A DNA stretch of 22,600 nt from positions 1 through 22,600 of the IMG/VR virus record IMGVR_UViG_3300020406_000246, one strand, 5' to 3'. How positions within the stretch are numbered: the stretch's first letter is position 1; each line of letters starts with the position of its first letter. This stretch comes from a virus. Position numbers and translations under genes: made by a program. Of this stretch, positions 8,522 through 22,600 are shown piece after piece. The notes below the pieces were generated by a model. The model was not told the origin of the DNA. It searched no databases and saw only the letters and a program-made list of their open reading frames with translations.

Positions 8522-9886
8522 ATGGCGTTAAAACTAAGAAGAGGAACAGACTCACAAAGAGCATTAATTACACCAGCAGATGGTGAATTGATCTATACTA
8601 CAGACACCAAAAAGCTATTTGTTGGGGACGGTTCGACACAGGGCGGTAATCCTGTTGACACGGCCGGCTCTGCATTAGGGTCAAATCTTTCACTTAACAA
8701 CTTTGATTTAGTTGGCACAGGTAACATCAATACAACTGGAAATATCACAGTAACAGGCAACATTACTGCTGATGGAAACTTAACTTTAGGCGGTAATTTA
8801 ACTGTAGGTGACGCCAGCTCTGATACATTAAATTTAACTGCAAAAATCGAATCACATATTTTGCCAGACGTTGATAGTGCAAGAAACGTTGGTTCAGCAA
8901 CACTAAGATGGAACCAAGGTTACTTTGGATCTTTACACATTACAGATACACTTGATGCTGGAAGTGTAAATGCAAATATAATTGGTGATGATTCAACTGT
9001 AATAGTAAACAAGGCAACTGGAGCCATTAATGCTTCAGGTACATTCAAAGGTGATGTTAAGGCAACTGACAATACAAGTTTCTTTAATGCAACATCAAAA
9101 GAAATAAATGCAGGTGCGGCAACATTTACAGGAGCAGTTGCGGCTCCAAGTATAACATCTGCAAGTATTACAGGAAACTTCAAAGGTACAATAGCAGGTG
9201 ACGATTCAACTATATTAGTTGATGCTGTCAACAGTACTGTAAGACTAGACAACGGATTAATTAGTATCAACTCAGATACACTTTCAGCACTACAGGCTGA
9301 CTTCTTTATATCAAGCAAGACAGCTGGTACTCCAACTACAATGACAATTAATGATAACTCAGCAGGTGGTAGTGCTCTTAAAATATTTGGTAAGACAAAC
9401 AGTTCATTTGATCCATTAACATCATTTGTATTTAGAGGGTTCAAAGATAATTTAGTTACTCCGAACGTGATGACAGCAGGTCAATACATTGGTAAGATTA
9501 GTTTCCAAGGTTATGACACTACTACAACCAACATTGTTGAGTCAGGTGGTATTGCTTGGAGAGTAGATCCAAACAACTCACCAATTGGCACAGATACGAT
9601 GAAAGGTAAGATGGAAGTTGTTTCCAACGCAGGATCAAACTCATCACCAGATCTAAAATACTTAACATTTGATTCTCAAGGTAGAATGGGTGTTAACAAA
9701 CAAACTGCAACTGCCGTACTAGATGTAGATGGTGACGCAGTATTTTCAAGCACGGTTAAGTTTGCAAACTTAACAACTACTCAAAGAGACGCATTAACTG
9801 GAGCGAGTGCTGGTATGGTAATTTACAATACAACATTAAATAAATTACAAGTACGTACTGGTGTTGCTTGGGTAGACTTACACTAA
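8522..9886 (+). CDS. Tail fibre / virion appendage protein
   Basis: A 454-residue low-cysteine, Ser/Thr/Asn/Gly-rich protein typical of phage fibres. The N-terminus (LKLRRGTDSQRALITPADGE, then IYTTDTKKLFVGDGST) is the module many phage appendage proteins use for virion attachment, also seen at the start of Mtd-like proteins. Short beta repeats follow (GNINTTGNITVTGNITADGN), then two copies of a GDDST-[VI]-[IL]-V unit near residues 154 and 226. The C-terminus, TTTQRDALTGASAGMVIYNT then LNKLQVRTGVAWVDLH, is a common fibre end and may trimerise or bind receptor. Late promoter just upstream. Its stop overlaps by two bases the stop of the converging gene. Confidence 0.85.
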   Translation: MALKLRRGTDSQRALITPADGELIYTTDTKKLFVGDGSTQGGNPVDTAGSALGSNLSLNNFDLVGTGNINTTGNITVTGNITADGNLTLGGNLTVGDASSDTLNLTAKIESHILPDVDSARNVGSATLRWNQGYFGSLHITDTLDAGSVNANIIGDDSTVIVNKATGAINASGTFKGDVKATDNTSFFNATSKEINAGAATFTGAVAAPSITSASITGNFKGTIAGDDSTILVDAVNSTVRLDNGLISINSDTLSALQADFFISSKTAGTPTTMTINDNSAGGSALKIFGKTNSSFDPLTSFVFRGFKDNLVTPNVMTAGQYIGKISFQGYDTTTTNIVESGGIAWRVDPNNSPIGTDTMKGKMEVVSNAGSNSSPDLKYLTFDSQGRMGVNKQTATAVLDVDGDAVFSSTVKFANLTTTQRDALTGASAGMVIYNTTLNKLQVRTGVAWVDLH

Positions 9887-11346
9887 TTAAATTCAGGATA
9901 ATCAATATTTAAATTATCACGTATGCTTTGACGCATATCTTTTGCACAATAATCATCACCATACAAAACAAGATCATCAGGAACTAAACTTTTGAATTTG
10001 TTCCATTTAACTTTAAGCTGATCCGGACCTTCATTCCAATGCAACATTTCACTGGACCATACATTGGTAGTCCAAAGAACTTTGTTGCCTTCCTGTGCTT
10101 TAATTATGTTAAATAAGTTTTCAGGTTCGTTTACAATATCTATCTTGTAGAAGTTGTGTTCAAGGTTAACATACCTATCCCATAGTTGTTTAAATGCTTC
10201 TGCACCACCAAAGTCTTGTAATTCTTGTTGCCAAAATGACTCGTAATTGCCTCTATATGTTGAGGCGAAGTTATACTTTAGGTCATGTTCCAACAGCCAC
10301 AGGTGTAAATCGACCCCATTCCACGTTTCTATAAGGTCTCTTTTGTATAGTAAACTTGCATCGCACCAATCAAAGTAATGTATCTTTGTGTTATCATTGA
10401 AGCCGTTGGTGGTTAATATAGACAAAGGTTTGAATCCAGCGGCCACACTAAACAAATGATCAATGTTTTCTGTTCGCTTACCTTCACCAGACAATGTTTC
10501 TGTATTGAAAGCATACACACGATCCTTTTCTATCTTTTCCTGTTGATCTAATTTACGTAACCAAGCCTTTTGATTATAATTTAATTCTTCAACTTGCCAA
10601 TAATCTTTTTGTATCCAACTCTTTGAAAGTATGTCTGACTTGTTATATGGATACAGAAATACTTTACAAGCTCTCATGTCATTTGTTAGATTGTCTATTT
10701 TTGTATTGGTTCTTAAAGCAATATCAATCCAGTTACTACCGTCTGATGTTTTTGCCCAATGTTTTTCTCCTTCAGCAGTATCAATCCAAGCAGGTGTGTA
10801 TTCAGCATGAATCTTTTCTTCACTTAATTTAAAATTTTGTAACTTAGGCATTCTGTCCCTAAATATTCCTAGTTCATCAAAAGGAGGTTTGCCAAGTTGC
10901 TCCCAAACTTTTAGATTAACAAAAAGATACTGCCTATGCAAACCAGGATATGCTCCTTTGGTTGCATAATGATTTTGTCCTTTCTTATCCATGATATGTC
11001 CACAAACAAAAAAGTTAGGATTTTCTTTTGCATATTTTAAACTTTGTTCTACTAGATTAGGACCTCTGTAAAGCAATAATCCTTGTGCGGCTACTATACA
11101 ATATTCATGTCCTTTTGCAAAACTATTTTCGAGTATGTTTTCAACCTTATGCGAACTGCCAACGTAATCAGCAACTTTCATTTTACTCATTCTGTTGATG
11201 TAAAAGTAAGTCATTTCTAAACAACGTTTACTTATGAATTCATTTTTTATATCTCTTGAAATATTAAGTATACCTATACCTACTTGATTGTTTGATTCAT
11301 GATCCTCATAGTATCTATCATGTGTTAAACTGTTCCAGTCTTTCAT
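9883..11346 (-). CDS. Large protein of unknown function, possibly two-domain
   Basis: A 487-residue soluble protein, last in a minus-strand arm. The N-terminal half has CIVAAQGLLLYRGPNLVEQS, NPNFFVCGHIMDKKGQNHY and LHRQYLFVNLKVWEQLGKPPF; this order recalls glycosyltransferase-like proteins, but no DxD metal motif is clear. The C-terminal half has NIDHLFSVAAGFKPLSILTT then TKIHYFDWCDASLLYKRDLI, which could be a Rossmann-like fold, and ends GDDYCAKDMRQSIRDN. Start ATG at 11346 was chosen because GGAGG sits about 8 bases upstream and the ATG overlaps the 41-residue gene's stop (TAATG). Either half could be an enzyme; I do not recognise the family with confidence. Confidence 0.7.
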   Translation of the reverse strand: MKDWNSLTHDRYYEDHESNNQVGIGILNISRDIKNEFISKRCLEMTYFYINRMSKMKVADYVGSSHKVENILENSFAKGHEYCIVAAQGLLLYRGPNLVEQSLKYAKENPNFFVCGHIMDKKGQNHYATKGAYPGLHRQYLFVNLKVWEQLGKPPFDELGIFRDRMPKLQNFKLSEEKIHAEYTPAWIDTAEGEKHWAKTSDGSNWIDIALRTNTKIDNLTNDMRACKVFLYPYNKSDILSKSWIQKDYWQVEELNYNQKAWLRKLDQQEKIEKDRVYAFNTETLSGEGKRTENIDHLFSVAAGFKPLSILTTNGFNDNTKIHYFDWCDASLLYKRDLIETWNGVDLHLWLLEHDLKYNFASTYRGNYESFWQQELQDFGGAEAFKQLWDRYVNLEHNFYKIDIVNEPENLFNIIKAQEGNKVLWTTNVWSSEMLHWNEGPDQLKVKWNKFKSLVPDDLVLYGDDYCAKDMRQSIRDNLNIDYPEFN

Positions 11347-11471
11347 TAGCCGCCTCCGAATCCTGTCCAGTTCCAAGGATCCTTAAACTTGTCGTCAACA
11401 GATTTGTGTGGCTTACACGTACATCTAATGAACAAGCCAGCTAATATTCCTATTAAAAACCAAGTCAACAT
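11346..11471 (-). CDS. 41-residue membrane peptide with Trp/Gly-rich tail
   Basis: A short frame between the flavodoxin-like gene and the 487-residue gene, with start and stop both overlapping neighbours as TAATG. The peptide has one N-terminal hydrophobic helix (MLTWFLIGILAGLFI), a short RCTCK segment with two Cys, a charged stretch (VDDKFKD) and an unusual end PWNWTGFGGG. The coupled junctions are good evidence for translation. Function unknown. A Gly-rich aromatic tail next to radical SAM and AspH-like enzymes raises the idea of a modified peptide, but a plain small membrane protein is equally possible. Confidence 0.6.
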   Translation of the reverse strand: MLTWFLIGILAGLFIRCTCKPHKSVDDKFKDPWNWTGFGGG

Positions 11472-12112
11472 TATGCCCACCAACTTATTTTTTTCTTTAA
11501 ATCAGGATCTAAACCACGGGCAAGTTTTCTAACTCTTTCCATGTGTTTATTAAATTCTTTATTATCCATACCTGGCAATACACTATAAAATCTTATATAT
11601 TTTGTAACCATACCACCTAGGTTGAATACTGCTTTTTTAATTCTTCTATATGGAATGTTATCAAACAAACTAAAATTAAAATAAGTAACCATCGGACCAC
11701 CATATGTTATAGATATCAAACCTAGTTTTTTATTCATTGCTCCTGGAACAGGATAACCGTAGTTCTTAAAATACTTACTGCCAGGCACCAATGCCCTGTA
11801 ACTGAAAAACCATTTAGGGTGTAAGACCCAATCAACCCAGTTTTCTAAAATTGCTGGCATTCTCAAGTTATGACACGAGCCTATAAGAAACATAACATCA
11901 CTGTTTTCTAATCTTTTTCTATAATCCAAAACAATTTGCGGTGGTGGATTTATATCTGCATTGTAGAATGGCAGTTGTTCTTCTTCTTCAAATAAATTAA
12001 TTAGATCTATTTCATGTCCGCATTTTTCTGCTTCTTCTATAAATGTATCTCGGATAGCCGCATTGAAACTAGACTTTGTATTGTGATGTCCATATATAAT
12101 ACAAATCTTCAT
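11471..12112 (-). CDS. Flavodoxin-fold NAD(P)H oxidoreductase-like protein
   Basis: A 213-residue protein of the flavodoxin-2 / NAD(P)H-quinone-oxidoreductase type. Seen: a beta-strand plus loop start MKICIIYGHHNTKSSFNAAI (phosphate-binding region for FMN/FAD), a middle strand DVMFLIGSC, and RMPAILENWVDWVLHPKWFF followed by SY, the typical PAxLKxWxDxVxxxGxxF block of this family. It would transfer hydride from NAD(P)H to flavin and on to an acceptor. Start ATG at 12112 has GGGGATAAG before it and lies one base after the dioxygenase stop. In this context it might supply electrons to the radical SAM enzymes, as flavodoxins do, but it looks like a reductase rather than a true flavodoxin. Confidence 0.75.
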   Translation of the reverse strand: MKICIIYGHHNTKSSFNAAIRDTFIEEAEKCGHEIDLINLFEEEEQLPFYNADINPPPQIVLDYRKRLENSDVMFLIGSCHNLRMPAILENWVDWVLHPKWFFSYRALVPGSKYFKNYGYPVPGAMNKKLGLISITYGGPMVTYFNFSLFDNIPYRRIKKAVFNLGGMVTKYIRFYSVLPGMDNKEFNKHMERVRKLARGLDPDLKKKISWWA

Positions 12113-12113
12113 C

Positions 12114-12824
12114 TTATCCCCTATTGGTATAGTAACTTTTACGTAAGACATAAAACATATCACGTAATCTTCTACCAACTTCTCCATGTATTATCATGTG
12201 TATTCTAGGCTTATCACTTTTATTCCAAACTGCATGAACGTTACTAATATCCATTAAAAATGCACCACCATTGTCTTCAAATGGTACTACTCCATGGTCT
12301 TTAAAAATAAATTCACAATCTTGTGGATTGTTTAATGCTATGTTACACACACTTAATCTTTTTTCTTTTGCATCTCTATCTTGATGTGGTAATATGTAAC
12401 CACCTGGTTCAAGTAACATAAACCTTACACGATTAAGATACTCCATTGGCCATACATCAGTCAAAAACTTTTTTGTTTCAGGACACTTGTCTGCAACCCA
12501 TGTCCAATCTAATTGCTTAATTACTTTGTTTCTATCGCCATAACTGTCTAATGTTTGGGTGTCATCATCTAATCCATGTATTGTTAAACTCTTCCAACCA
12601 TAGCCATAATCATCTCTATGATCATGAAAGCTATCAATTAGTGCTTCAGCTTCATGGTACATTCCTTTCCAGGGTTGATTATCTAATGCTGACAATTTAA
12701 AGAAAGGCCAATGTGATTCTTCAACCAACCACATAGGGTCAAACACGTCTTGATATAAAAAATTTACGTCTTTCTTGTGTTCTTGCCAGTATGTGTCCAG
12801 GGTTTTTTGATGTTCTATATCCAT
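12114..12824 (-). CDS. AspH-like Fe(II)/2-oxoglutarate dioxygenase
   Basis: A 236-residue protein of the aspartyl/asparaginyl beta-hydroxylase-like family. The iron triad and 2-oxoglutarate Arg are visible: H147 and D149 in LPHQDRD, H197 in NVHAVWN and R207 in DKPRIHMIIHG, with the family's RFMLLEPGGYILPH lead-in. Such enzymes hydroxylate residues in peptides and proteins, or small amino-acid-like molecules. It is first in the arm 12824-9883. Its ATG is preceded by AAGGTAG, and only 35 bases separate it from the divergent radical SAM gene. Phages carry many 2OG dioxygenases, so the substrate cannot be assumed. Confidence 0.85.
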   Translation of the reverse strand: MDIEHQKTLDTYWQEHKKDVNFLYQDVFDPMWLVEESHWPFFKLSALDNQPWKGMYHEAEALIDSFHDHRDDYGYGWKSLTIHGLDDDTQTLDSYGDRNKVIKQLDWTWVADKCPETKKFLTDVWPMEYLNRVRFMLLEPGGYILPHQDRDAKEKRLSVCNIALNNPQDCEFIFKDHGVVPFEDNGGAFLMDISNVHAVWNKSDKPRIHMIIHGEVGRRLRDMFYVLRKSYYTNRG

Positions 12825-12859
12825 TAAACTACCTTATAATTCAGTTAAATATACTTATC
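12825..12859. promoter_or_regulatory. Short divergent intergenic region between two arms of the island
   Basis: Only 35 bases separate the start codons of the dioxygenase (minus) and the radical SAM gene (plus), so promoters for both directions must overlap here or reach into the coding ends. An exact TATAAT on the plus strand (12835-12840) lies 20 bases before the plus-strand ATG but has no convincing -35. The minus strand offers TATATT (12848-12853 on the complement), also without a -35. No TATAAATA late box is present. Confidence 0.35.
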
Positions 12860-13888
12860 ATGTATTTGAATATAGAAGATATAGATACGATTACAGTAGA
12901 TTTTACTGCTCATTGTAATGCTATGTGTGGTAATTGTTCCAGAAATTTAGGTGGAGTAGAAGTAAATCCACGTATGCCTCTTGAACATATGAGTCCTGCA
13001 ACGTTCAAGAATTTATTCAGCAAAAACGTTTTAGAAAATATCAATCAAATTGTATTCAACGGATCATATGGTGATCCGTTGGTAAGTCCGCATCTGTTTG
13101 AATGTTTAGACTATCTTGCAGATTACAATAAGCCTATTATCCACATACATACCAATGGTGGTATGCGACAGCCTAAATACTTTGAGGAACTTGCAAATAA
13201 ATTAAAAGACTTTCCTTTTCCAACCCATGTGGTGTTTAGCATAGACGGTTTAGAAGATACAAATCATTTATACAGAAGAAATGTAAAATGGAATAAGGTA
13301 ATGGAAAATGCCCAATCATTTTTAGACGCAGGTGGTTTAGGCAGATGGCGTATGTTGGTGTTTGAACACAATGCTCATCAGCTTGAACAAGCAGAAGAAT
13401 TAAGTAATAAAATGGGGTTTGCAAAATTTGATATCAATGGTGGGCATACTTTTACTGCTATGAATAGCATGGTTAACAAAGCAATAGAAAAATTTAAAGC
13501 TAACAAAAAAGAACAAGCACGTACGATAAAATATGATACAAGTAAATTAGATAATTTGAAAAGGTTGAAAGATTTAAAACAAAAACATGGAAGTTTAGAT
13601 GACGGATTTAAAAAGTCATGTATTACTTGCAAATGGCAAAAGAAAAGAAAAATACAAGTCAGTCATGTTGGTGAAGTATTTCCTTGTTGTTATATGTTGT
13701 CTGATAGATATCCAAGAGAAGTTGATAGCCCCTATGCACAAGAAGTATCAAAAGTAGATTGGCTCAACGTAAATGATATGCCTTTAGAAGTAATACTAGA
13801 CAGTCCTTTCTTTGCACATGAACTGCCTGACAGTTGGAGTAGTGAAGATAGATTTAAAATTTGTGAGGTAACCTGCGGTGAAGTGTAA
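12860..13888 (+). CDS. Radical SAM protein with SPASM-like C-terminal cysteines
   Basis: A 342-residue radical SAM enzyme. The [4Fe-4S]-SAM motif is C19-x3-C23-x2-C26 in TAHCNAMCGNCSRN. The usual GGEP strand reads GSYGDP (68-73). A C-terminal set of Cys (254, 257, 276, 277, 335, 339) resembles a SPASM/twitch auxiliary cluster: CITCKWQ, then GEVFPCCYML. It is a clear paralogue of the protein at 20672-21664: same MY-x-IEDI start, NPxMxL block, HTNGxGR/HTNGGMR and AGGxxRWxMLVFxHNxHQ. Start ATG at 12860 opposes the dioxygenase gene; no strong ribosome binding site is visible. Overlaps the next gene by 11 bases. Substrate unknown. Confidence 0.88.
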   Translation: MYLNIEDIDTITVDFTAHCNAMCGNCSRNLGGVEVNPRMPLEHMSPATFKNLFSKNVLENINQIVFNGSYGDPLVSPHLFECLDYLADYNKPIIHIHTNGGMRQPKYFEELANKLKDFPFPTHVVFSIDGLEDTNHLYRRNVKWNKVMENAQSFLDAGGLGRWRMLVFEHNAHQLEQAEELSNKMGFAKFDINGGHTFTAMNSMVNKAIEKFKANKKEQARTIKYDTSKLDNLKRLKDLKQKHGSLDDGFKKSCITCKWQKKRKIQVSHVGEVFPCCYMLSDRYPREVDSPYAQEVSKVDWLNVNDMPLEVILDSPFFAHELPDSWSSEDRFKICEVTCGEV

Positions 13889-14912
13889 GTACTTAGATCA
13901 TCAAGTTATGGTACGCCCTGATGGCGAATTCCGTTTGTGTTGCATAAGCAATGAAAAAACAAACAAGGAAAACATTAAACAAATGACTCCAGAGCAATGG
14001 TTAGCAAGTGCAACTCCCACAAAGGCACGTGAACAGTTAGCTAACAATGAATGGCCAGATGCTTGTAAAAAATGTAAACTTATGGAAGAGGCTGGTAGAC
14101 CAAGTATGCGTCAAAGACCAAGAGAGTATGGTCCTGGCATAAGTCATTTAGATATAAGGTTTGGCAATCAATGTAATTTACGTTGTACTATGTGTTACCC
14201 AGGTAGCTCTAGTAGTTTGTATGAAGAACACAAAGAATTAAAAGCAAAAGGTGAAAGCCCATGGGGTTGGTTTGACTATGGATTATACAACTGGTATACA
14301 GATGAGCAGGGAGAAACACTTGCACGTAATCCTAATTTGAGAGAAGTATATCTTACAGGTGGTGAACCTATGATGGTCAAAGGGCTTAACAAGTTCCTAG
14401 CAAAATTAGATCCATCAGTTGAAGTAAGATTTAACACCAACGGTACTTTATTTAATCCAAAAGTTTTTAATGAACTTAAAAGATTTGAACGTGTAAACAT
14501 GAACTTCAGCATAGATGGTATTGGCAGAACAAATGATTATATACGTTGGGGAAGTAATTGGGATACCATAGAATACAATTTAAATAAGTTTAGAGAAGTA
14601 GCTGATGTAAGTTTAGGTCCTACTGTACAAGTAATGAATGTCTTAGAATACGATGATTACGTTGAGTATGCACAGGCAAATCAATTAGAAATATTTGACA
14701 ACCTATTAATGACTCCAGATTGTTTGCATATTAAAAATGCACCACAGGCAATGAAAGACAGTATTCAACATTTTGATTATTGGATGAATCACCCAACAAG
14801 TGTAGAAAAGCAAGAAGAATTTAAAAAGTGGATAGGAGTGTTAGATAAAAACAGAGGTTGTAGCATTAAAGAATACTTACCAGCAGTGGCAGGATATTAT
14901 GGAATTAGTTAA
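13878..14912 (+). CDS. N-terminal-twitch radical SAM protein
   Basis: A 344-residue enzyme in which the auxiliary-cluster (twitch) module comes before the radical SAM core, an architecture known as N-twitch radical SAM. Twitch Cys: C3, the pair C21-C22 (VRPDGEFRLCC), and C63-x2-C66 (ACKKCKLMEEAG). Radical SAM motif: C99-x3-C103-x2-C106 in FGNQCNLRCTMCYPGSSSS. SAM-binding GGEP at 161-164, NTNGT near 187, and FSIDG later. GTG start at 13878 lies inside the end of the previous gene; the first codons (MKCKYLDHQVMV) match the N-terminus of this type, so little is missing. It overlaps the kinase-like gene by 14 bases. Substrate unknown. Confidence 0.88.
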   Translation: MKCKYLDHQVMVRPDGEFRLCCISNEKTNKENIKQMTPEQWLASATPTKAREQLANNEWPDACKKCKLMEEAGRPSMRQRPREYGPGISHLDIRFGNQCNLRCTMCYPGSSSSLYEEHKELKAKGESPWGWFDYGLYNWYTDEQGETLARNPNLREVYLTGGEPMMVKGLNKFLAKLDPSVEVRFNTNGTLFNPKVFNELKRFERVNMNFSIDGIGRTNDYIRWGSNWDTIEYNLNKFREVADVSLGPTVQVMNVLEYDDYVEYAQANQLEIFDNLLMTPDCLHIKNAPQAMKDSIQHFDYWMNHPTSVEKQEEFKKWIGVLDKNRGCSIKEYLPAVAGYYGIS

Positions 14913-15363
14913 AAAGAACACAGATAAAAAAAGAGAAGTTTATAAACTAGATGATAGATATCGCAAGGTTTGGTATGTTGATGATGAGTTTGCTTTAGAA
15001 GAACACGTTTCAATATTAGACAAAGTTATTCCAGGATATGTGATAGATTATGGCGTCACACAAAACAGTATGTTTATTGATTATCACATAGTGCCTGGTA
15101 CGCCTGCAAATAAGGTTCCACACACACCAGAATTTTTTAAAAGGATATACAACTTCTGTCATGAAACACTTGATCAAACTTTACCATATGCACACTATGA
15201 TTGGGTATTGAGTAACATAATGCTAGACGGAAATAACACTTATCTTGTGGATTGGGATAACGTAGGAATATATTCACCTGAAGAAATACAAACAAAAATG
15301 GAAAGCGATCTAAGGTCAGCTTTTGGAGAAAGATACGATGAAATGCTTCGCACCTTGGCATAG
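14899..15363 (+). CDS. Tiny APH/LPS-kinase-like phosphotransferase
   Basis: A 154-residue protein with a kinase-like catalytic region: H99-x-D101...N106 in AHYDWVLSNIML (catalytic loop) and D118/D120 in YLVDWDNVG (metal-binding DxD in place of DFG). A minimal N-lobe may be present, with K23 in RKVWYV and E34/E35 as candidates for the ATP-binding Lys-Glu pair. Typical aminoglycoside, choline or LPS kinases have 250-300 residues, so this is a very short version. ATG at 14899 overlaps the preceding gene, and the end overlaps the next gene by 26 bases. Likely substrate is a sugar or small alcohol by family analogy, not by sequence. Confidence 0.75.
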   Translation: MELVKKNTDKKREVYKLDDRYRKVWYVDDEFALEEHVSILDKVIPGYVIDYGVTQNSMFIDYHIVPGTPANKVPHTPEFFKRIYNFCHETLDQTLPYAHYDWVLSNIMLDGNNTYLVDWDNVGIYSPEEIQTKMESDLRSAFGERYDEMLRTLA

Positions 15364-16462
15364 TATTTTGGTACGTTTTAACGGTGATATAGTACCTGAT
15401 GGTGTGTACTTAAAACGTTACGGAAACGTGCTACAATCGTCTTTAAATGACCTTTTAAACAGCTATACAGCGTCATACACACGTGATTCAATAAGAGCGG
15501 GCCACTTACCGCCCGAGTGTCAACAATGTGCTTTAAAAGAAGCCTCTGTGGGTCACAGCAGGAGATTATTCTTCAAAGATATTTTGAATCCTATGTTAGA
15601 AAATACCAATTATGATTACTCCAAAAACTTTACAGATATCTACTTTTTGGAATTCAATATGAGCAATATTTGTAATCTTAAATGTAGAATGTGCGATGGA
15701 ATAAATTCAAGTGCTTGGGTGAAAGATGATATCAAATTATCACAAAATGGAAACCCTTACGGACGTAGAATAAATGATCCAGAATTTGGATACACTAATA
15801 AAAGCGATCAAATTGTTGCTAGATTGTTTGAAGATCCAACACCATTTATGAACTTAAGATATTTAAGTATCAAAGGTGGCGAACCTTACATGGAACCTGC
15901 AAACAAATTAATACTTAAAAAATTTATTGATTTAGGCATAGCAAAGAACATCACCATTGATTGGACTACCAACGGTACAATAGTAGATGAAGAAGTAGCA
16001 CACTTGGCCAAGCAATACAAAGAAACAAAATGGACTGTAAGTTTGGAAGGCACAGATGGCTTGTATGAATACATCAGAGGCGGAAAGAACTTTACGTTTG
16101 AACAACTAAACAATAACTTAAAACAATACAACTTTGATAGAATCATTATTGCTGTAACTGTGATGGCTTACAACATAGCACACCTTGATAAAATACATTG
16201 GTGGTTTGAAGAAAACAAACAAGACAACTGGGAAATATATTTTAACAATGTAGTCACAGCACCCCCTTATTTAAATCCAAGAGTTTTGCCTAACGAAATA
16301 TTAGATAAGATTGATTTTAGATTGCCTAAGATTAATTACACACAATCTGAACTAGCACCTAAGTATATTGATGCTTTTGTTAACTATACAAATGATTTAG
16401 ATAAAATTAGGAATACAAGTGTGCTAGACTACTGTCCAGAACTTACTCCCCTGTTTGGATAG
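15338..16462 (+). CDS. N-terminal-twitch radical SAM protein with a reduced twitch cysteine set
   Basis: A 374-residue paralogue of the N-twitch proteins at 13878 and 18477. Radical SAM motif C112-x3-C116-x2-C119 (NICNLKCRMCDG), KGGEP with GGEP at 180-183, and TTNGT. The twitch module retains C3 (MKCFAPWHS) and C61-x2-C64 (ECQQCALKEAS), but the Cys pair present in both paralogues after the NGD/DGE turn is replaced by Asp-Gly (RFNGDIVPDGVYL). Start ATG at 15338 has GGAG about 9 bases upstream and lies within the kinase gene; an in-frame TTG at 15323 is less likely. The 3' end overlaps by 20 bases the end of a converging SDR gene. Confidence 0.87.
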   Translation: MKCFAPWHSILVRFNGDIVPDGVYLKRYGNVLQSSLNDLLNSYTASYTRDSIRAGHLPPECQQCALKEASVGHSRRLFFKDILNPMLENTNYDYSKNFTDIYFLEFNMSNICNLKCRMCDGINSSAWVKDDIKLSQNGNPYGRRINDPEFGYTNKSDQIVARLFEDPTPFMNLRYLSIKGGEPYMEPANKLILKKFIDLGIAKNITIDWTTNGTIVDEEVAHLAKQYKETKWTVSLEGTDGLYEYIRGGKNFTFEQLNNNLKQYNFDRIIIAVTVMAYNIAHLDKIHWWFEENKQDNWEIYFNNVVTAPPYLNPRVLPNEILDKIDFRLPKINYTQSELAPKYIDAFVNYTNDLDKIRNTSVLDYCPELTPLFG

Positions 16463-16991
16463 GATCCAAAGCAATATAATGTAGATTAATATGATGTGGA
16501 GTATCTATTACCCACTTCACATACTTGCCAGCCTCTAACAAACTAATTTTACGTCTGGTATCTTTTGTTTTTTGACTTTGGCTGTTAAGTTGACCAAAAG
16601 CAATATTGCTTATACGTATATTGCTGTTACCCCAACAAATATTTTTGCATAACATTTTGCTCCTACCATCTAGTAATGTTTTATTTTCAATATAATTTCT
16701 AGGACTATAACCATCTCCCCAGTATGAACTTGTACTGCTTATGTTTATAATATGTCCTCTTTCAAACTTTTCATACACAGCATCTAATATTTTTACCTGT
16801 TCTCCATTAGGACCATACTGACTGTTAACAAATACATCAAAGTCTTTGGCATGGTTAGCCACCTTGTCATAATCTGTAAGATCCCAATCATTCCATCTAC
16901 CAATGAACTCTACAAAATTATGATTGTATGCTTCAAATATGCCTTTGCATAATCCTTCGTAATTGGGATTGCCTGTAACTAAAATTCTCAT
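16443..16991 (-). CDS. Short-chain dehydrogenase/reductase-like protein, atypical
   Basis: A 182-residue NAD(P)-binding protein of the SDR type, shorter than the usual ~250. Seen: MRILVTGNPNYEGLCKGI, a glycine-rich loop that departs from TGxxxGxG; DVFVNSQYG in place of the NNAG strand; INISSTSSYWG with the catalytic Ser region (85-88); Y100-x3-K104 (YIENK), the catalytic Tyr/Lys pair; and ISNIAFGQLNS for the segment after strand 6. All catalytic positions are present, so an active oxidoreductase or epimerase-like enzyme is plausible. Last gene of the long minus-strand arm; its start overlaps the radical SAM stop (ATGA). Its end overlaps the converging twitch gene. Confidence 0.75.
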   Translation of the reverse strand: MRILVTGNPNYEGLCKGIFEAYNHNFVEFIGRWNDWDLTDYDKVANHAKDFDVFVNSQYGPNGEQVKILDAVYEKFERGHIINISSTSSYWGDGYSPRNYIENKTLLDGRSKMLCKNICWGNSNIRISNIAFGQLNSQSQKTKDTRRKISLLEAGKYVKWVIDTPHHINLHYIALDPIQTGE

Positions 16992-17893
16992 TGTAGTTCC
17001 TTCCTAATGAATATATCACTTAAACAACTGCATCTTTCTTTGCCACAAAGTATTTTATCTTTGGGCAGTTTATATCTTTCCAAGTTTCCTATTGCTCCGC
17101 CAAACTGGCAGTCAGCTCTATACATATTTCCCCACATATCTATATTGACACCATGTAGCCCTGCCCAACAGTTCCAACCGCTAAACTTGTTTTTGTCTTG
17201 TAATATTAAGTCATTGGCATTAACAATCTCATCATTCAACATCATGGCCCCTCTATGTAAGTCCTCATCTTTAACCTTACGTGAAAAAGGCCAATCCTTA
17301 ATTAATTGTTTTTGTGCTTCTGTATATGTCATGACTTCATTTGTGATGTTTTCAGAACTTGTTTTGTCCACAATAACTTTAGGAACTATACTTGCTCTTG
17401 CGGTACTGCTATAAATTTTTTCTGCAAGTGTAAAGATCTCTTCAAAGTCGTTAGGCAACAACATCATGTTAATTACAGTTTCTATTTTACTTTCATTTAT
17501 AATTTTAATAAAGTGTTCTGGATTTGCGTATGCTTTATGATAACTTAACATCATTCCGTCAGTGTAAGGAGCAATTTTTTTAAAGTATTCCGGACTTTGA
17601 CTACCATTACTTACAAAGGTAAATTTGTGACCTTCTTCTTTTACAAGTTCAGCAAGTTCAACAAAATGTTTCCAATAAGTAGGTTCTCCGCCACTTAATC
17701 TATAACAAATTTTTTTATCTTTTATATTAAAGTTTTGCACAAATCTTTTGACAGTTGACCATTGAGGTTGTCCTGTGCTTCCGTTGTGTAATATGTCTGG
17801 GCAATATTCACATCTATAATTGCACTTATTTGACAAGGTCCAACTTACGAGAAACCAATCATTCTTTGCAGGATCTTTGTAAGTTAATTTCAT
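16988..17893 (-). CDS. Radical SAM protein with SPASM-like C-terminus
   Basis: A 301-residue radical SAM enzyme: C24-x3-C28-x2-C31 in SNKCNYRCEYCPD, SGGEP with GGEP at 68-71, and FVSNGS. The C-terminal part holds C242 (GWNCWAGLHG), C262 (MYRADCQFGG), and C283/C288/C290 (ILCGKERCSC), a probable auxiliary iron-sulphur cluster. It is paralogous to the truncated gene at the right edge, which has a YTE-x-QK stretch, WNCWAG and a Cys-rich end at matching places. Joined to SDR genes on both sides by ATGA overlaps, so the three products are likely made in similar amounts and may act in one path. Confidence 0.88.
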   Translation of the reverse strand: MKLTYKDPAKNDWFLVSWTLSNKCNYRCEYCPDILHNGSTGQPQWSTVKRFVQNFNIKDKKICYRLSGGEPTYWKHFVELAELVKEEGHKFTFVSNGSQSPEYFKKIAPYTDGMMLSYHKAYANPEHFIKIINESKIETVINMMLLPNDFEEIFTLAEKIYSSTARASIVPKVIVDKTSSENITNEVMTYTEAQKQLIKDWPFSRKVKDEDLHRGAMMLNDEIVNANDLILQDKNKFSGWNCWAGLHGVNIDMWGNMYRADCQFGGAIGNLERYKLPKDKILCGKERCSCLSDIFIRKELQ

Positions 17894-18480
17894 GTGTTTC
17901 TAACCTCTACTCTTGATATGTGTGTTCCTTCTATCCAATTTTCAATTACATATTTTACACAGTTTGAAATTGACTCTTCACGTATCAATGTGCCATTTTT
18001 TTCGTGGGTGCTATATAAATTTTCTACCCATTTTTTAAAAGACCCCGTTGCTAGGTTTAGCTCAGATAAATTTGATTTAGTGATATTAGGACTTATCACA
18101 CTAACTTTACACTTCCAGTGATTCTTGTTTATCTCTACACTCTGTTTGTCCATATACTTTTTATCTATGTAATACTGTTCTGTTGCAAATTCGAAAGGGT
18201 CTTCAGCACTAGCAATTTGACTGCTGATATTTACACACAGTTTGTTCTTGTCCTTGTTAGTCTTACACCAAGACATAAACAATGCGTTTTGATCCACAGG
18301 CATATATGCGTTGTTGATCAATATATCTGCTTCTGCAATAAGCTCAAGGTTATCTTGTACATCTTGACCATTTTTCTTGTCAAGTCCTATTATCTTGTAA
18401 TCGTCAACAAACCACCACAGACCCTCCATTATAGACTTTCCTATTACACCTTCACTGCCTGTTACAACTATTTTTCTCAT
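17890..18480 (-). CDS. Short-chain dehydrogenase/reductase
   Basis: A 196-residue SDR: TGSEGVIGKSI (7-17) is the nucleotide-binding glycine loop; D34 at the end of strand 2 (IIGLDKKNG) suggests NAD rather than NADP; NNAY (57-60) matches the NNAG position; NISSQ gives the catalytic Ser (86/87); Y103-x3-K107 or Y104-x3-K108 is the catalytic pair; and VISPNITKS follows strand 6. It is more regular than the SDR at 16443 but still short. Both ends overlap neighbours by ATGA. It probably oxidises or reduces an intermediate made by the radical SAM enzymes; that is inference from position. Confidence 0.82.
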   Translation of the reverse strand: MRKIVVTGSEGVIGKSIMEGLWWFVDDYKIIGLDKKNGQDVQDNLELIAEADILINNAYMPVDQNALFMSWCKTNKDKNKLCVNISSQIASAEDPFEFATEQYYIDKKYMDKQSVEINKNHWKCKVSVISPNITKSNLSELNLATGSFKKWVENLYSTHEKNGTLIREESISNCVKYVIENWIEGTHISRVEVRNT

Positions 18481-19781
18481 ATATACTGTCCTAGTTCAGG
18501 AAACGTTTTTCTAAAATCTGTTCCACGTCTTTCATCTGTAACTTGCAAATATTCTTGTAAAGCTGGTAATTTGTGACTCCAATCTTCCTGCATCATGTAT
18601 TTTATCAATCCATGCCAACGTTGTGCTCCATACGGATGTTGATTAAATTCTAAATTAAATTTTTGTCTATCTATAAAAGTTTCTACTTTGTTTTTAATCC
18701 AATCCTTTGCTTGTTTAGGCAGTACCTGAACATTAAGATATGAGGGCAAGTAAACTAAATGTGTGCCTATAATGCCTCCGCCAAACATTGATGGATTTAT
18801 TTTACTGAATCCTTGATCCATTTTCCATTCTGCTAGTTCATCTATGTACCCTGCATTTAATAATTGTACTGCACAGGCAATATTGATTACTGTATTGTCC
18901 TTTGTATTTTGATCAAGTCTTTTTAAATTAGCTTCAACGTCCGACCACTTGCTTGGGTAACGTATATAATCATTACGTTGTCCGTAAGCATCTATGCTAA
19001 AATTAAATCTAACCTCTTTGAAATGATCCCATAACTTAAACAACTTGTCTGGCAACTCAAGTCCATTTGAATTGTATCTTAAATTACAGTCTTTTGCATA
19101 ACCTTCTGCAACCATAAATTCTAATATTGCATAGTGTTCGGGTATAAGCAGAGGTTCCCCTCCTGCAAAATAAAGTTCTTGTATATTAAATGCCTGGTGC
19201 TTCATTGAATCTATGAATGATCCTTTCTTATACCAAGTATAATCATATTGGTCATCCCAACCTTGATCAGCAAGTAAGTCTTTGTTTTTGTATTGTGGAT
19301 ATTGCAGTTTCCATTCCTTGATCCAACTTGAACTATCATGCGGACTACACATCACACATTTTAGTTGACATAAATTACCTAAACGCAAATCAAAATAAGG
19401 AATACTAACAGGAGCAGTACCATCTTCTTTTGTACTTGCAATCAGTTTGTCAAAGTCTAAACGTTGTTTCCATTCTTCAGTTTCCCATTGACGTTTGCTT
19501 GTAATACCTTTTGCTTCTTCGTTAAAACATTTAACACAACTGCTTGGAACTTCACCATTAAGCATTTGCAGTCTTGTTCTTCTCATATGTTCACTGTTCC
19601 ATACTTCTTCTATTGTATGGTCACGCAAGTTCATTGCTATTCCATCTTTCTTTACAAGCCCTGCTGTCTTTTCATCTTGTTTACCGGCACCACTGGCATT
19701 GGCAGTACAACAAACCCTAACATCTCCATTAGGTCTTGTAGCTAAATGTATCCAGGGTAATGGGCAAAATGTTTTACTCAC
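18477..19781 (-). CDS. N-terminal-twitch radical SAM protein
   Basis: A 434-residue enzyme, the longest of the three N-twitch proteins here. Twitch module: C6 (FCPLPWIHL), C24-C25 (RPNGDVRVCCTAN), C82-x2-C85 (SCVKCFNEEA). Radical SAM motif: C138-x3-C142-x2-C145 (GNLCQLKCVMCSPHDSS). FAGGEP with GGEP at 207-210, YNSNG, and NFSIDAYGQRNDYIR, nearly the same phrase as in the 13878 protein. The start is GTG at 19781, overlapping the methyltransferase stop (GTGA) with AGGAAGG a few bases upstream. The end overlaps the SDR start. Substrate unknown; twitch enzymes act on sugars, nucleosides and peptides. Confidence 0.88.
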   Translation of the reverse strand: MSKTFCPLPWIHLATRPNGDVRVCCTANASGAGKQDEKTAGLVKKDGIAMNLRDHTIEEVWNSEHMRRTRLQMLNGEVPSSCVKCFNEEAKGITSKRQWETEEWKQRLDFDKLIASTKEDGTAPVSIPYFDLRLGNLCQLKCVMCSPHDSSSWIKEWKLQYPQYKNKDLLADQGWDDQYDYTWYKKGSFIDSMKHQAFNIQELYFAGGEPLLIPEHYAILEFMVAEGYAKDCNLRYNSNGLELPDKLFKLWDHFKEVRFNFSIDAYGQRNDYIRYPSKWSDVEANLKRLDQNTKDNTVINIACAVQLLNAGYIDELAEWKMDQGFSKINPSMFGGGIIGTHLVYLPSYLNVQVLPKQAKDWIKNKVETFIDRQKFNLEFNQHPYGAQRWHGLIKYMMQEDWSHKLPALQEYLQVTDERRGTDFRKTFPELGQYI

Positions 19782-20383
19782 GATTTCCTTCCTATCAACA
19801 TATACCTAGTATACTTAGGCAGTTCTAATTCCATTTTTTCTGTAACCTTTAATTTACTTTTTCTTTCAAAGTCTGCAAGACTTTTCATACAGTTTACGTG
19901 TTCTTCTAGTTCAAAATAATTATTGCTTTGTAAAACAATTTGTGCATCACCTGGAACTTTATCTAACCATTTATCATATTGTTCCTGTGTTATATGTTCA
20001 CAACTGGTATTGATTACAAAGTAAGGATTTGTTTTGTATTCATATTCACACATATCAGCTGTTACAGATTCAAACTTGCCTTCCATCTCATAACGTTTAT
20101 TCATTGTTGATGCTGTTTCTTTACATTTAGGATCTATGTCTATGCTTGTGATGTGCTTGATTCCAAGTTCACTATTAAATATCATACAAGCTAATAAGCC
20201 ATTCCACCCTCCATGTATGATACATTCTGCATTTCTAATTGATTTGTGTTTCTCAAGTTGTTCTATTAACCACAACTTGCTTTTAATTTGTCCTCCCCAG
20301 AAAGTTTCAAGTGTGCGATCTCTATCATCGCTGTTGCGAATCGCATCCATCCAAAATTTTATGTCATTAATGTCTATTTTCAT
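19778..20383 (-). CDS. Class I SAM-dependent methyltransferase-like protein
   Basis: A 201-residue Rossmann-fold protein. IIHGGWNGLLACMIF (55-69) matches motif I (usually ExGxGxG, here HGGWNG); ITSIDIDPKCKETA gives the acidic residue D82 or D84 that binds SAM ribose; TADMCEY (D110) is the adenine-side acidic position; and FVINTSCEHI lies at motif IV. The Glu of motif I is replaced by His. A small C-terminal domain ends YTRYMLIGRKS. Joined to the membrane protein before it and the twitch gene after it by ATGA/GTGA overlaps. The methylated molecule is not known. Confidence 0.7.
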   Translation of the reverse strand: MKIDINDIKFWMDAIRNSDDRDRTLETFWGGQIKSKLWLIEQLEKHKSIRNAECIIHGGWNGLLACMIFNSELGIKHITSIDIDPKCKETASTMNKRYEMEGKFESVTADMCEYEYKTNPYFVINTSCEHITQEQYDKWLDKVPGDAQIVLQSNNYFELEEHVNCMKSLADFERKSKLKVTEKMELELPKYTRYMLIGRKS

Positions 20384-20670
20384 TTTTTAAGTTTCTTTAT
20401 TAACAGTGGTAAGTAAACACCTACGGCAACTATACCCCAAAAGATTCCTAATGCTGTTGCATATAATTTCCAATTAGAAAAATCTAACAGTATTCCTAAA
20501 CTGACACCACCTATCCATACGTAATCAAGTGTTGCGTGAAACTTCTTCCACTTTGCACCATACGTTGCAATTAGATGATCTCTCTTGTTAGCAAACCAAG
20601 GGTGTACATGACGCATTATTACAAATCCTTCATTCAACACCATCACTGTAAATCCTATCCAAAATATCAT
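20380..20670 (-). CDS. Small three-helix membrane protein of unknown function
   Basis: A 96-residue protein with hydrophobic segments near residues 1-19 (MIFWIGFTVMVLNEGFVIM), 48-63 (YVWIGGVSLGILLDF) and 69-91 (LYATALGIFWGIVAVGVYLPLL), ending in a basic tail (KKLKK). Between the first and second helices is a charged loop with several His (MRHVHPWFANKRDH). It lies one base after the radical SAM stop and overlaps the methyltransferase start, so it belongs to the island's operon. It could anchor the pathway or handle its product at the inner membrane; nothing in its sequence says which. Confidence 0.65.
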   Translation of the reverse strand: MIFWIGFTVMVLNEGFVIMRHVHPWFANKRDHLIATYGAKWKKFHATLDYVWIGGVSLGILLDFSNWKLYATALGIFWGIVAVGVYLPLLIKKLKK

Positions 20671-20671
20671 T

Positions 20672-21664
20672 TTACGTCCTTTCTACGAATTGTTCATTTA
20701 ATTTGTCAAAACTTCCACATTGTTTTGAACATTCTTTCAAGCCTGTTGTATTCCAACAACCAGCTATAAGGTCAAAATAGCCACTTGCAAATATATCTTT
20801 CATAGTAGTATTATTTAAGTTCGGCCAGACCTTGATTTTGTTCATATAATCTATTCTATTCTCGTGTGTATGGGGGTAAAACTGCTGATCTAACCAACAG
20901 CAAGGAGTTACACTACCTAAAGCACTTACATATAGCATACTATCCTTAACTGCTTTGCATTTTATTGTTGGCAGTTGTTCAGCTGATGCTTTTTTTACTT
21001 TGCCCATCATCTTTTTACTTAATTCTGTTGGATACAATGTATCTATTGTTTGTCCTTGTTCATTTAGAACATCAAACTTACCATCTTTAAAACGTGTGGT
21101 GTGTTTTATAGTGAAACTTTGCATACCCAACCTTTGCGATAAAGTTCTACACTCCTCCACTTGATGTTCATTGTGTTGAAACACTAACATATCCCATCTT
21201 GCATTGCCACCAGCATCAACAAAGGTCATTACATTGTCAATTATTTTTTTCCAATCAGTGTTTATTCTATACTTGGCATGGGTGTCTGCTAATCCATCTA
21301 TTGCAAAAACAGTTTGTACTCCTAGTTTTGCAATCTTTTGCCACCATTGTTTGGTTCTACCACTTCCGTTGGTATGCATCTGTAAGGTCATTGTAGGATT
21401 AGCTTCACGTAGATACTCATATATAGGCAAAGTATCTTTTGCCACAATAGGATCTCCCAAGTTACCACATATTGCAAGATGATTAAGTTGTTTTATAAAG
21501 TCTATTGGAAACCATTCCATAAATTTGTCTATGCTTATTTCATCTAACCCCATAAAAGGATTCAAAGGACCTCCATTGATACGTCTTGCACACATAGGAC
21601 ACTTTGCTTGACACCTACTTGTGACTTCTAAATGTATTGCTTTGATATCTTCTATTTTATACAT
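20672..21664 (-). CDS. Radical SAM protein with SPASM-like C-terminal cysteines
   Basis: A 330-residue paralogue of the protein at 12860-13888. Radical SAM motif C18-x3-C22-x2-C25 (TSRCQAKCPMCARR). The GGEP position reads GNLGDP, with GDP at 70-72. C-terminal Cys: 236, the pair 255-256 (SVTPCCWLDQ), 303, 312 and 316 (KECSKQCGS), a likely SPASM-type auxiliary cluster. The NPFMGL, HTNGSGR and AGGNARWDMLVFQHNEHQ phrases are shared with the paralogue. ATG at 21664 overlaps the end of the acetyltransferase-like gene by 13 bases. The two paralogues sit in opposite arms of the island. Confidence 0.88.
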   Translation of the reverse strand: MYKIEDIKAIHLEVTSRCQAKCPMCARRINGGPLNPFMGLDEISIDKFMEWFPIDFIKQLNHLAICGNLGDPIVAKDTLPIYEYLREANPTMTLQMHTNGSGRTKQWWQKIAKLGVQTVFAIDGLADTHAKYRINTDWKKIIDNVMTFVDAGGNARWDMLVFQHNEHQVEECRTLSQRLGMQSFTIKHTTRFKDGKFDVLNEQGQTIDTLYPTELSKKMMGKVKKASAEQLPTIKCKAVKDSMLYVSALGSVTPCCWLDQQFYPHTHENRIDYMNKIKVWPNLNNTTMKDIFASGYFDLIAGCWNTTGLKECSKQCGSFDKLNEQFVERT

Positions 21665-22203
21665 GGGTACTTTTTTAAATTTTCTAAAAACTTGTGTGCG
21701 TTAAGTTTCCAAACAATCTGTTCTGTGTTTCTATAATTTATTTCCTTTACTTTACTAAATTCACCTTGCTTTTCTAACAAAGGAAAATATATTTTATTTA
21801 CTAACTTCTGTGAACCTGCTTCTTCATTGTTACTGGTTACATACATATCTGAATCTACACCGCACCACTCTATACAAGTAGGAACAAAATATTGACTTGT
21901 TAAGTTTTGGTGCTCTACGATGTATCTTCTACCAGTGCCTAATCCTTTGCTGTCACGCACACCGTCTAACACACAGGTTCTTGCAAGTATTCTATATCCA
22001 TTCATTTCAGGAAACGTGTGAGCTACTACACTACCAATAGCTTTATCATCTTTATACAATATCCAAGCATTCCATTTGTCTTCATTTTTAAAACAATCAA
22101 TCATTGATTTTTGATTTGCATTGTTCCTATGACCCCTTCTTTCTGCTTCCTGGTAAAATTCTTCTAAATCCAAAGTTTCATTCCATTCAACCATTTTATA
22201 CAT
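21652..22203 (-). CDS. Possible GNAT-like acetyltransferase
   Basis: A 183-residue protein with WNAWILYKDDKAIGSVVAHTF, which looks like the central strands of a GNAT fold, and KGLGTGRRYIVEHQN, which could be the Q/RxxGxG/A acetyl-CoA loop and following helix. The C-terminal half (CIEWCG, KIYFPLLEKQGEF, IVWKLN) is less telling. ATG at 22203 was chosen since AGGAGAG lies about 6 bases upstream; it overlaps the end of the preceding radical SAM gene by 8 bases. Other folds are possible, so the function is tentative. An N-acyl transfer step would fit an aminosugar or amino-acid-derived product. Confidence 0.5.
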   Translation of the reverse strand: MYKMVEWNETLDLEEFYQEAERRGHRNNANQKSMIDCFKNEDKWNAWILYKDDKAIGSVVAHTFPEMNGYRILARTCVLDGVRDSKGLGTGRRYIVEHQNLTSQYFVPTCIEWCGVDSDMYVTSNNEEAGSQKLVNKIYFPLLEKQGEFSKVKEINYRNTEQIVWKLNAHKFLENLKKYPCIK

Positions 22204-22600
22204 TGACTCTCTCCTTTGGTATTTTGCTATCTGCACTACTTACACAGGTTGGAGTAACGCACGGCATTGGTGCTTTAAACAGCTCAAATCCGTCGTCTAA
22301 CGTGCCTAAAGGCTCATCATGGCAACTATATGCACGTTTCACTTCACCACCTGGTTCGCGTATGATACAGCTTTGATAACCTGCCCAACAGTTCCAATCT
22401 TTGAACTTGTTAAATCCATAAGCATTTAATCTTTCTGCTTGATCTATCCAGTACTCTATTCCTTGATCATCCTGTAATATGATTTGAGGTGTGGTTTGTT
22501 GATTGTCCTGTTGCAATATGTTTTTTTGTTCTTCCGTATAACCACCCACGACAAAACTAGCAGTAGGATCAGACTGAGGCTTGAGTGTAACATGAAGGCC
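22196..22600 (-). CDS. Radical SAM protein, C-terminal part only (cut by window edge)
   Basis: The frame is open to the right edge (bases 22600 downwards), so the GTG at 22549 is not the true start and the radical SAM core lies outside the window. The visible 134 residues match the C-terminal region of the protein at 16988-17893: a GGYTEEQKNIL segment, KDWNCWAGYQSC, then Cys-rich AYSCHDEP and PMPCVTPTCVSS. These Cys probably bind an auxiliary iron-sulphur cluster. The CxxxCxxC motif itself is not seen, so assignment to radical SAM rests on the paralogue. AGGAGAG near its end serves the next gene. Confidence 0.7.
   Translation of the reverse strand, partial: GLHVTLKPQSDPTASFVVGGYTEEQKNILQQDNQQTTPQIILQDDQGIEYWIDQAERLNAYGFNKFKDWNCWAGYQSCIIREPGGEVKRAYSCHDEPLGTLDDGFELFKAPMPCVTPTCVSSADSKIPKERVNV

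Follow-up and report, generated by a model that had tools for sequence, protein, structure and literature searches.

A conserved island of radical SAM genes in phages, its counterparts in Bdellovibrionota, and a possible role in glycan biosynthesis

Radical SAM-rich phages and the locus studied

Clusters rich in radical S-adenosylmethionine (SAM) genes have been on record for T4-like phages since 2010, but with no function proposed. The Campylobacter phages CP220 and CPt10 (Firehammervirus) encode 11-12 radical SAM proteins, of which five sit in a cluster that is interchangeable (Timms et al. 2010, PMC2853527), and a 183-kb T4-like marine genome, TARA_ERS488813_N000010, is described as carrying 12 radical SAM genes and an A-type Fe-S carrier (Nishimura et al. 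2017, PMC5332604). The accessible portions of the latter paper only count these genes as Fe-S proteins and mention neither an island or synteny nor a bacterial counterpart or a link to glycans. Here we describe an island of radical SAM genes in a 22.6-kb IMG/VR fragment (IMGVR_UViG_3300020406_000246, positions 1 to 22,600; this whole stretch is called the window below), which possibly comes from the same lineage as TARA_ERS488813_N000010 or from a sister lineage. The island extends from position 9883 to the right edge of the window and comprises 15 complete genes and one cut gene, lettered A to P from left to right. On balance, we think it somewhat probable that this is a phage-borne locus for the biosynthesis or tailoring of a glycan, on the host surface or on the virion, of which we infer both the substrate and the site.

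CP220 and CPt10 resemble the phage of the window in being T4-like myophages rich in radical SAM genes. The CP220 cluster is also near tail genes, and in the CP220 record it holds two proteins of nucleotide-diphospho-sugar transferase fold and is situated upstream of a tail fibre. The two loci nevertheless differ in sequence and content: among the island proteins searched against phage isolates, a relative in CP220 was detected for N alone (23.5% identity, E 3e-6), with none found there for A, G, K and P, and CP220 has an amidinotransferase that is absent from the island. More broadly, no relative of genes A, G and P was found among phage isolates. Pseudomonas phage PA5oct (Arenbergviridae) shares with the window the order of QueE, RNaseH and MoxR ATPase at the left flank, but has no radical SAM island at the corresponding place. 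A smaller cluster, of three radical SAM genes near a PagP-like gene, with a fourth about 12 kb off, is present in the jumbo Vibrio phage K566 from seawater and oysters (L248, 150844-179542), a possible laboratory model.

A sequence-only reading of the window had called such a density of radical SAM genes unusual for a phage. Unusual it is, but comparable clusters in T4-like phages were already known from the 2010 and 2017 publications. In the openly searchable literature (subscription papers excluded), we found nothing on the conserved structure of the island, on the Bdellovibrionota counterparts or on a sugar reading.

Organisation and conservation of the island

The left boundary of the island is a gene for a tail-fibre-like protein with an Mtd N-terminal domain (8522-9886, plus strand; PF18454, E 1e-10), which is convergent with gene A and overlaps it by 4 bp. 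Coding density is 99.3%, and the genes overlap or lie 1 bp apart, much as first described, the sole exception being the 94 bp that separate 11376 from 11471. By strand they form three blocks (minus 9883-12824, plus 12791-16462, minus 16443-22600), and the island is three transcription units on both strands. The earlier wording of one co-expressed pathway is therefore not supported, and a one-operon reading is ruled out by the gene strands.

Six complete radical SAM genes lie within 12791-21664, and all six carry the CX3CX2C motif and match PF04055 above its cut-off, as expected from the six frames initially recognised. Three are on the plus strand, namely D (12791-13888, alternative start 12860; PF04055, 41 bits), E (13878-14912) and G (15323-16462, alternative start 15338), and three on the minus strand, namely I (16988-17893; PF04055, E 9e-13), K (18477-19781) and N (20672-21664; PF04055, 33 bits). 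The cut gene P (22196-22600, minus strand), the seventh radical SAM gene of the island and rightly taken for a truncated paralogue, has no radical SAM core of its own in the window, and is 99-100% identical to the C-terminus of 320-aa radical SAM proteins in near-identical contigs (L001:8507-9469 and L002:2021-2983); the full-length protein of L002 carries CNYDCSYC. Because near-identical contigs show two further radical SAM genes past the right edge, the genome carries at least nine, plus QueE. The end of this QueE-like 7-carboxy-7-deazaguanine synthase gene, at 2-769 as in PA5oct, lies outside the island and is an eighth gene of radical SAM fold in the window.

Genes E, G and K belong to the NF033640 class, with an N-terminal twitch/SPASM domain (246, 222 and 424 bits, cut-off 170); this family has no assigned function, and the phage proteins form their own clade, while D, I and N score below the cut-off. 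D and N are paralogues (31% identity, E 7e-52), five of whose C-terminal SPASM-type cysteines are invariant despite PF13186 scores of 20.7 and 18.3 bits, respectively, just under the cut-off of 21.5. I and P form a second paralogous pair (24% identity), with a distinct five-Cys C-terminal domain. The CX3CX2C motif is kept in every distinct orthologue of D, E, G, I, K and P, and in 34/35 of those of N. In D, C42/C46/C49 are present in 13/13 alignment rows and C280, C299, C300, C358 and C362 are invariant; in I, C24/C28/C31 and C242/C262/C283/C288/C290 are invariant (16 rows); and the auxiliary-cluster cysteines are intact in E and K. Gene G, the most conserved island protein among viruses, has the motif in 17/17 distinct orthologues, with PD replacing the paired Cys of its N-terminal domain and C8/C66/C69/C371 invariant. 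In two loci of Bdellovibrionota, L103 and L104, the radical SAM core and the C-terminal domain of gene I are separate overlapping open reading frames (ORFs), and this split supports the idea that the five-Cys tail is a real module. At these split loci (L103:7559-8664, L104:12423-13468) the detached five-Cys protein is 114-118 aa long, its gene overlapping that of the core by 4 bp.

The gene order P-(O)-N/L-K-I-H-G-F-E-D-C-A recurs in dozens of IMG/VR contigs, the largest of 268 kb, in which identities range from 99% to about 45-60%; gene N is present in 59 viral contigs and gene A at 71 viral loci. Values of dN/dS (Nei-Gojobori, against the closest relative) are 0.02-0.08 for most island genes, 0.15 for J and 0.22 for M. 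Given this constant order, the purifying selection and the kept cluster motif, the island is, as far as comparison of sequences can tell, real, conserved, old and functional. The suggestion of a conserved biosynthetic or modification system is thereby supported, by the intact catalytic cysteines as well, and we saw neither scattering or independent gain and loss of the genes in relatives nor decay of catalytic residues in most members.

Variation was found around this core. In a more divergent island (G013, L058), P, N, L and K remain while the genes around them are rearranged, and G013 has an additional carbamoyltransferase and a B12-binding-type radical SAM protein (L079:18803-19999, L079:3895-5439). 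Genes for an A-type Fe-S carrier are present in G011 and G013, one for a class III aminotransferase in G003, and an aminotransferase-type gene also in G012. Inside the radical SAM island of G003 is HemC (hydroxymethylbilane synthase; L069:8117-8956, that is, G003:48117-48956), at 270 bits against a cut-off of 164.

The phage itself can be placed, by sequence comparison, in the T4-like jumbo group around PA5oct, as part of a marine lineage in which the island has tail genes on either side. Large relatives (G010, 186 kb; G011, 268 kb; G014) encode Gp23, and the capsid protein of G010 is nearest to those of Sinorhizobium phage Phosso (71%), Vibrio phage 2.275.O (69%) and PA5oct and its kin (67%), this being evidence from a relative, as the window has no capsid gene; the window's own MoxR is 50% identical to that of PA5oct. 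In the relative G002, a single open frame of 4907 aa (G002:19878-34601; L063/L064) forms part of the structural block just before the island; it is 47-75% conserved in relatives, and a search of PDB sequences gave no match.

Bacterial counterparts and a possible glycan product

Chromosomal counterparts were found in Bdellovibrionota, where a search of genome contigs with the single K sequence gave nothing and a profile search was needed. Gene K is 44-51% identical to the Bdellovibrionota chromosomal proteins so found, and gene P is 46-53% identical to proteins of the same phylum. Within 6 kb of the K orthologue, P occurs in 17/21 bacterial loci, N in 16/21, an L-type methyltransferase homologue in 8/21 and homologues of the islands' glycosyltransferase (GT)-like genes (x_GT2/x_44497) in 9/21, a few of these loci being overlapping or near-identical. 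Homologues of gene H stand beside the P-N-K radical SAM triad in L087 and L100. In a second set, A adjoins C together with G-/I-type genes (L103/L104 and L264/L265), or without the G-I pair (L112, L262, L263); gene A homologues occur in 9/291 sampled genomes of the phylum, a sample for which frequencies are rough.

These clusters (L084-L104, L260-L267) thus share with the phage island the P-N-K triad, the A-C pair and the G-I pair, at 22-53% identity, and are interleaved with GT2 and nucleotide-diphosphate (NDP)-sugar genes. Large GT2 proteins adjoin the P/N/K homologues in L094 and L267, and the bacterial radical SAM clusters contain or adjoin genes for GT2 proteins, UDP-sugar pyrophosphorylase (UDPGP), asparagine synthase, and ATP-grasp and QueC-like proteins. 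Differences are that they are cellular, that gene I is split in L103/L104, and that a genome may hold up to 33 NF033640 matches, the range being 10-33 in the Bdellovibrionota metagenome-assembled genomes (MAGs) searched, with 6 in a Marinimicrobia MAG. In one Bdellovibrionia MAG, a 916-kb contig has more than 12 NF033640 radical SAM genes in about 30 kb (G023:C1:745513-774880; L264, L265), a cluster denser in such genes than the phage island and holding a UDPGP gene. A Marinimicrobia cluster includes a nucleotide-sugar dehydrogenase and a GT2 gene with 69-70% and 58-59% identity, respectively, to phage-island genes. In trees of K and P, the viral proteins form single clades beside Bdellovibrionota, with an uncertain root and several long branches.

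Sugar genes are also found in related viral islands, which add, between or beside the radical SAM genes, an RmlA/GlmU-like sugar-1-phosphate nucleotidyltransferase, a beta-phosphoglucomutase-like HAD, a nucleotide-sugar dehydrogenase (UDP-glucose-dehydrogenase family) and a GT2-like gene. The HAD and the nucleotidyltransferase are fused in G013, and in G001/G002 they form, with a gene for a 245-aa protein, a cassette between L and M. Nucleotide-sugar and glycan genes are thus a feature of related islands and bacterial counterparts, the window itself having only gene A, from its predicted fold. The product, at first left as unknown, can be narrowed to a glycan type because of these sugar-nucleotide and glycosyltransferase genes. 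Since the nearest radical SAM counterparts adjoin sugar genes on Bdellovibrio-like chromosomes, our results suggest that an unusual sugar coat is built or chemically altered by these viruses, and that the genes are not a random metabolic cargo.

Gene A (9883-11376, minus strand) probably starts at ATG 11346, because most relatives begin there. It has no Pfam match, and a profile search against PDB sequences found nothing. An initial AlphaFold2 model from 11 alignment rows was poor (pLDDT 68), while a 35-row alignment gave pLDDT 87 and pTM 0.84. In this form the protein models as a GT-A glycosyltransferase followed by a class I methyltransferase: in Foldseek the N-terminal half matches mimivirus R699, the PBCV-1 capsid glycosyltransferase and majastridin over ~150-170 query columns, and the C-terminal half matches the methyltransferase AviRa (E 0.012, probability 0.99), with modest E-values and each match spanning one domain only. 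A bacterial homologue of gene A (L265:10175-12211) is extended at its N-terminus by a region that weakly matches 2-oxoglutarate (2OG)-Fe(II) oxygenase. The context, that is, the sugar genes of fuller islands and the bacterial glycosyltransferases, is a stronger argument for a glycan than the fold of gene A.

In the mechanism that we envisage, activated sugars would come from the host or from the sugar-nucleotide genes of fuller islands, and the radical SAM enzymes would oxidise, epimerise, deoxygenate or methylate sugar positions beyond the reach of ordinary enzymes. Steps by short-chain dehydrogenase/reductase (SDR), dioxygenase, methyl- and acyltransferase proteins would complete the residue, which gene A or a GT2 would then attach to the host envelope, for superinfection block or receptor remodelling, or to the phage's own tail fibre. 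BtrN, NeoN and AprD4 are twitch/SPASM radical SAM enzymes that act on sugars, which makes radical sugar chemistry by the island enzymes plausible by analogy, although none of the latter was shown to be close to these three in sequence.

Several observations weigh against a sugar substrate. No island radical SAM protein has a characterised close relative, and the PDB matches are weak and mostly to peptide maturases, a lipid synthase and viperin-type proteins, not to sugar enzymes. SPASM proteins act more often on peptides, and enzymes of PF05118, the family of gene C, are able to use proteins or lipids as substrates. Whole-protein TM-scores of gene A against solved structures are at most 0.24, with only single domains matching, and the HAD/nucleotidyltransferase cassette, still present in relatives that are 95-99% identical, has been lost from the window. 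We also consider doubtful a bolder version of the glycan proposal, in which a largely self-sufficient sugar or glycan pathway of 7-9 radical SAM reactions, with undescribed chemistry shared with the predatory-bacteria-like Bdellovibrionota, would redecorate the virion or the infected cell.

Among other explanations, modification of a protein or peptide fares best, even if we hold it to be rather unlikely. The radical SAM enzymes would act on side chains of a protein of the phage or the host, for example the tail fibre, Asp/Asn hydroxylase-type dioxygenases would hydroxylate residues, and gene A would glycosylate the hydroxyl, as in collagen-type hydroxylysine. This would fit the PDB and NCBIfam neighbours of the SPASM family, which are largely peptide maturases, mimivirus R699 as the top PDB fold of gene A and the many GT25-type proteins among viral neighbours, the adjoining of C and A together with the 2OG-oxygenase-like region of the bacterial A homologue, and the Mtd_N tail fibre next to the island. 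However, both marks of the maturation of ribosomally synthesised and post-translationally modified peptides (RiPPs) are absent from the window: the densely coding island has no free precursor-peptide gene, and no Pfam scan gave a recognition domain of PqqD or RiPP recognition element (RRE) type. Moreover, peptide-only chemistry needs no sugar-nucleotide genes, yet relatives carry them.

It is improbable that the island encodes a cofactor or small-molecule pathway inside the cell (tetrapyrrole-like, a modified nucleotide or a natural product), as could be thought from weak matches to the NirJ, AhbD and MoaA families and from the true HemC between radical SAM genes of G003, with its class III aminotransferase. 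HemC occurs in one compared island only, none of the cofactor equivalogue models comes near its cut-off, and the glycosyltransferases would be left unexplained. We likewise give little credence to a general auxiliary-metabolism cargo of independent radical SAM genes, put to unrelated uses in Fe-S-rich hosts; the cassettes flanking the core do come and go among lineages, and the A-type Fe-S carrier of G011 and G013 would agree with it, but the core order is constant in dozens of contigs and the triads recur on bacterial chromosomes. Viperin-type antiviral or anti-competitor chemistry, with chain-terminating nucleotides made by I and P, is very improbable, because gene I, though its best NCBIfam match is viperin and viperin-like chains are among its PDB matches, reaches 47.6 bits on NF038283 against a cut-off of 180, I and P have the additional five-Cys domain, and the conserved partners are other radical SAM and glycosyltransferase genes. 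The viperin, tetrapyrrole and RiPP readings were all considered, and were ranked below glycan biosynthesis or tailoring.

Partner genes and biological meaning

To the left of the island, the window encodes on the plus strand, in addition to the QueE end and the tail-fibre-like protein, an RNaseH-like protein, a MoxR ATPase and a DUF2201/VWA protein. Among the partners of the radical SAM genes, the AspH-like, flavodoxin-fold, methyltransferase-like and kinase-like (APH-like) proteins of the sequence-only reading are present, while its SDR and GNAT acyltransferase assignments are weak in Pfam. Gene C (12114-12824, minus strand; PF05118, E 1e-12) encodes a Fe/2OG dioxygenase of the aspartyl/asparaginyl beta-hydroxylase family (AspH-like), in which H147, D149 and other invariant residues are conserved, and it directly adjoins gene A in phages and in Bdellovibrionota. 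Gene B (11471-12187, minus strand; PF02525, E 1e-20) encodes an accessory flavodoxin-fold NAD(P)H/FMN reductase. No orthologue of B was found in any viral contig compared, so it does not belong to the core, and a role as core electron supply is ruled out, since B was found in no other island.

Gene F (14899-15363, plus strand) encodes a small APH-fold phosphotransferase-like protein (PF01636, E 0.004, below cut-off) with H99, D101, N106, D118 and D120 invariant in 13 rows. The remaining partners are all on the minus strand. Two are SDR-like: gene H (16443-16991), a short Rossmann protein with a VTGxxxxxG motif (adh_short_C2, E 0.065 only), and gene J (17890-18480), with TGSEGVIG and only 28-31% identity to the SDR-type proteins that occupy its position in relatives, of which the one in G003 matches adh_short_C2 with E 8e-5. 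Gene L (19778-20383) is methyltransferase-like (PF13649, E 0.005, below cut-off). Gene M (20380-20670), a small putative membrane protein, has no Pfam match, is hydrophobic by inspection, and is confined to the closest relatives among the viral contigs compared. Gene O (21652-22236) is a possible GNAT acyltransferase; it has no Pfam match, and its G013 homologue matches FeeM weakly (E 0.03).

The bacterial counterparts and the sugar genes of fuller islands supply a testable functional reading for this locus. If that reading is true, the core genes would stand for a radical-based chemistry of sugars in marine phages that is so far unexplored and would be tied to the expansion of radical SAM genes in Bdellovibrionota, and P, N and K, A and C, and G and I would constitute a defined set for reconstitution.

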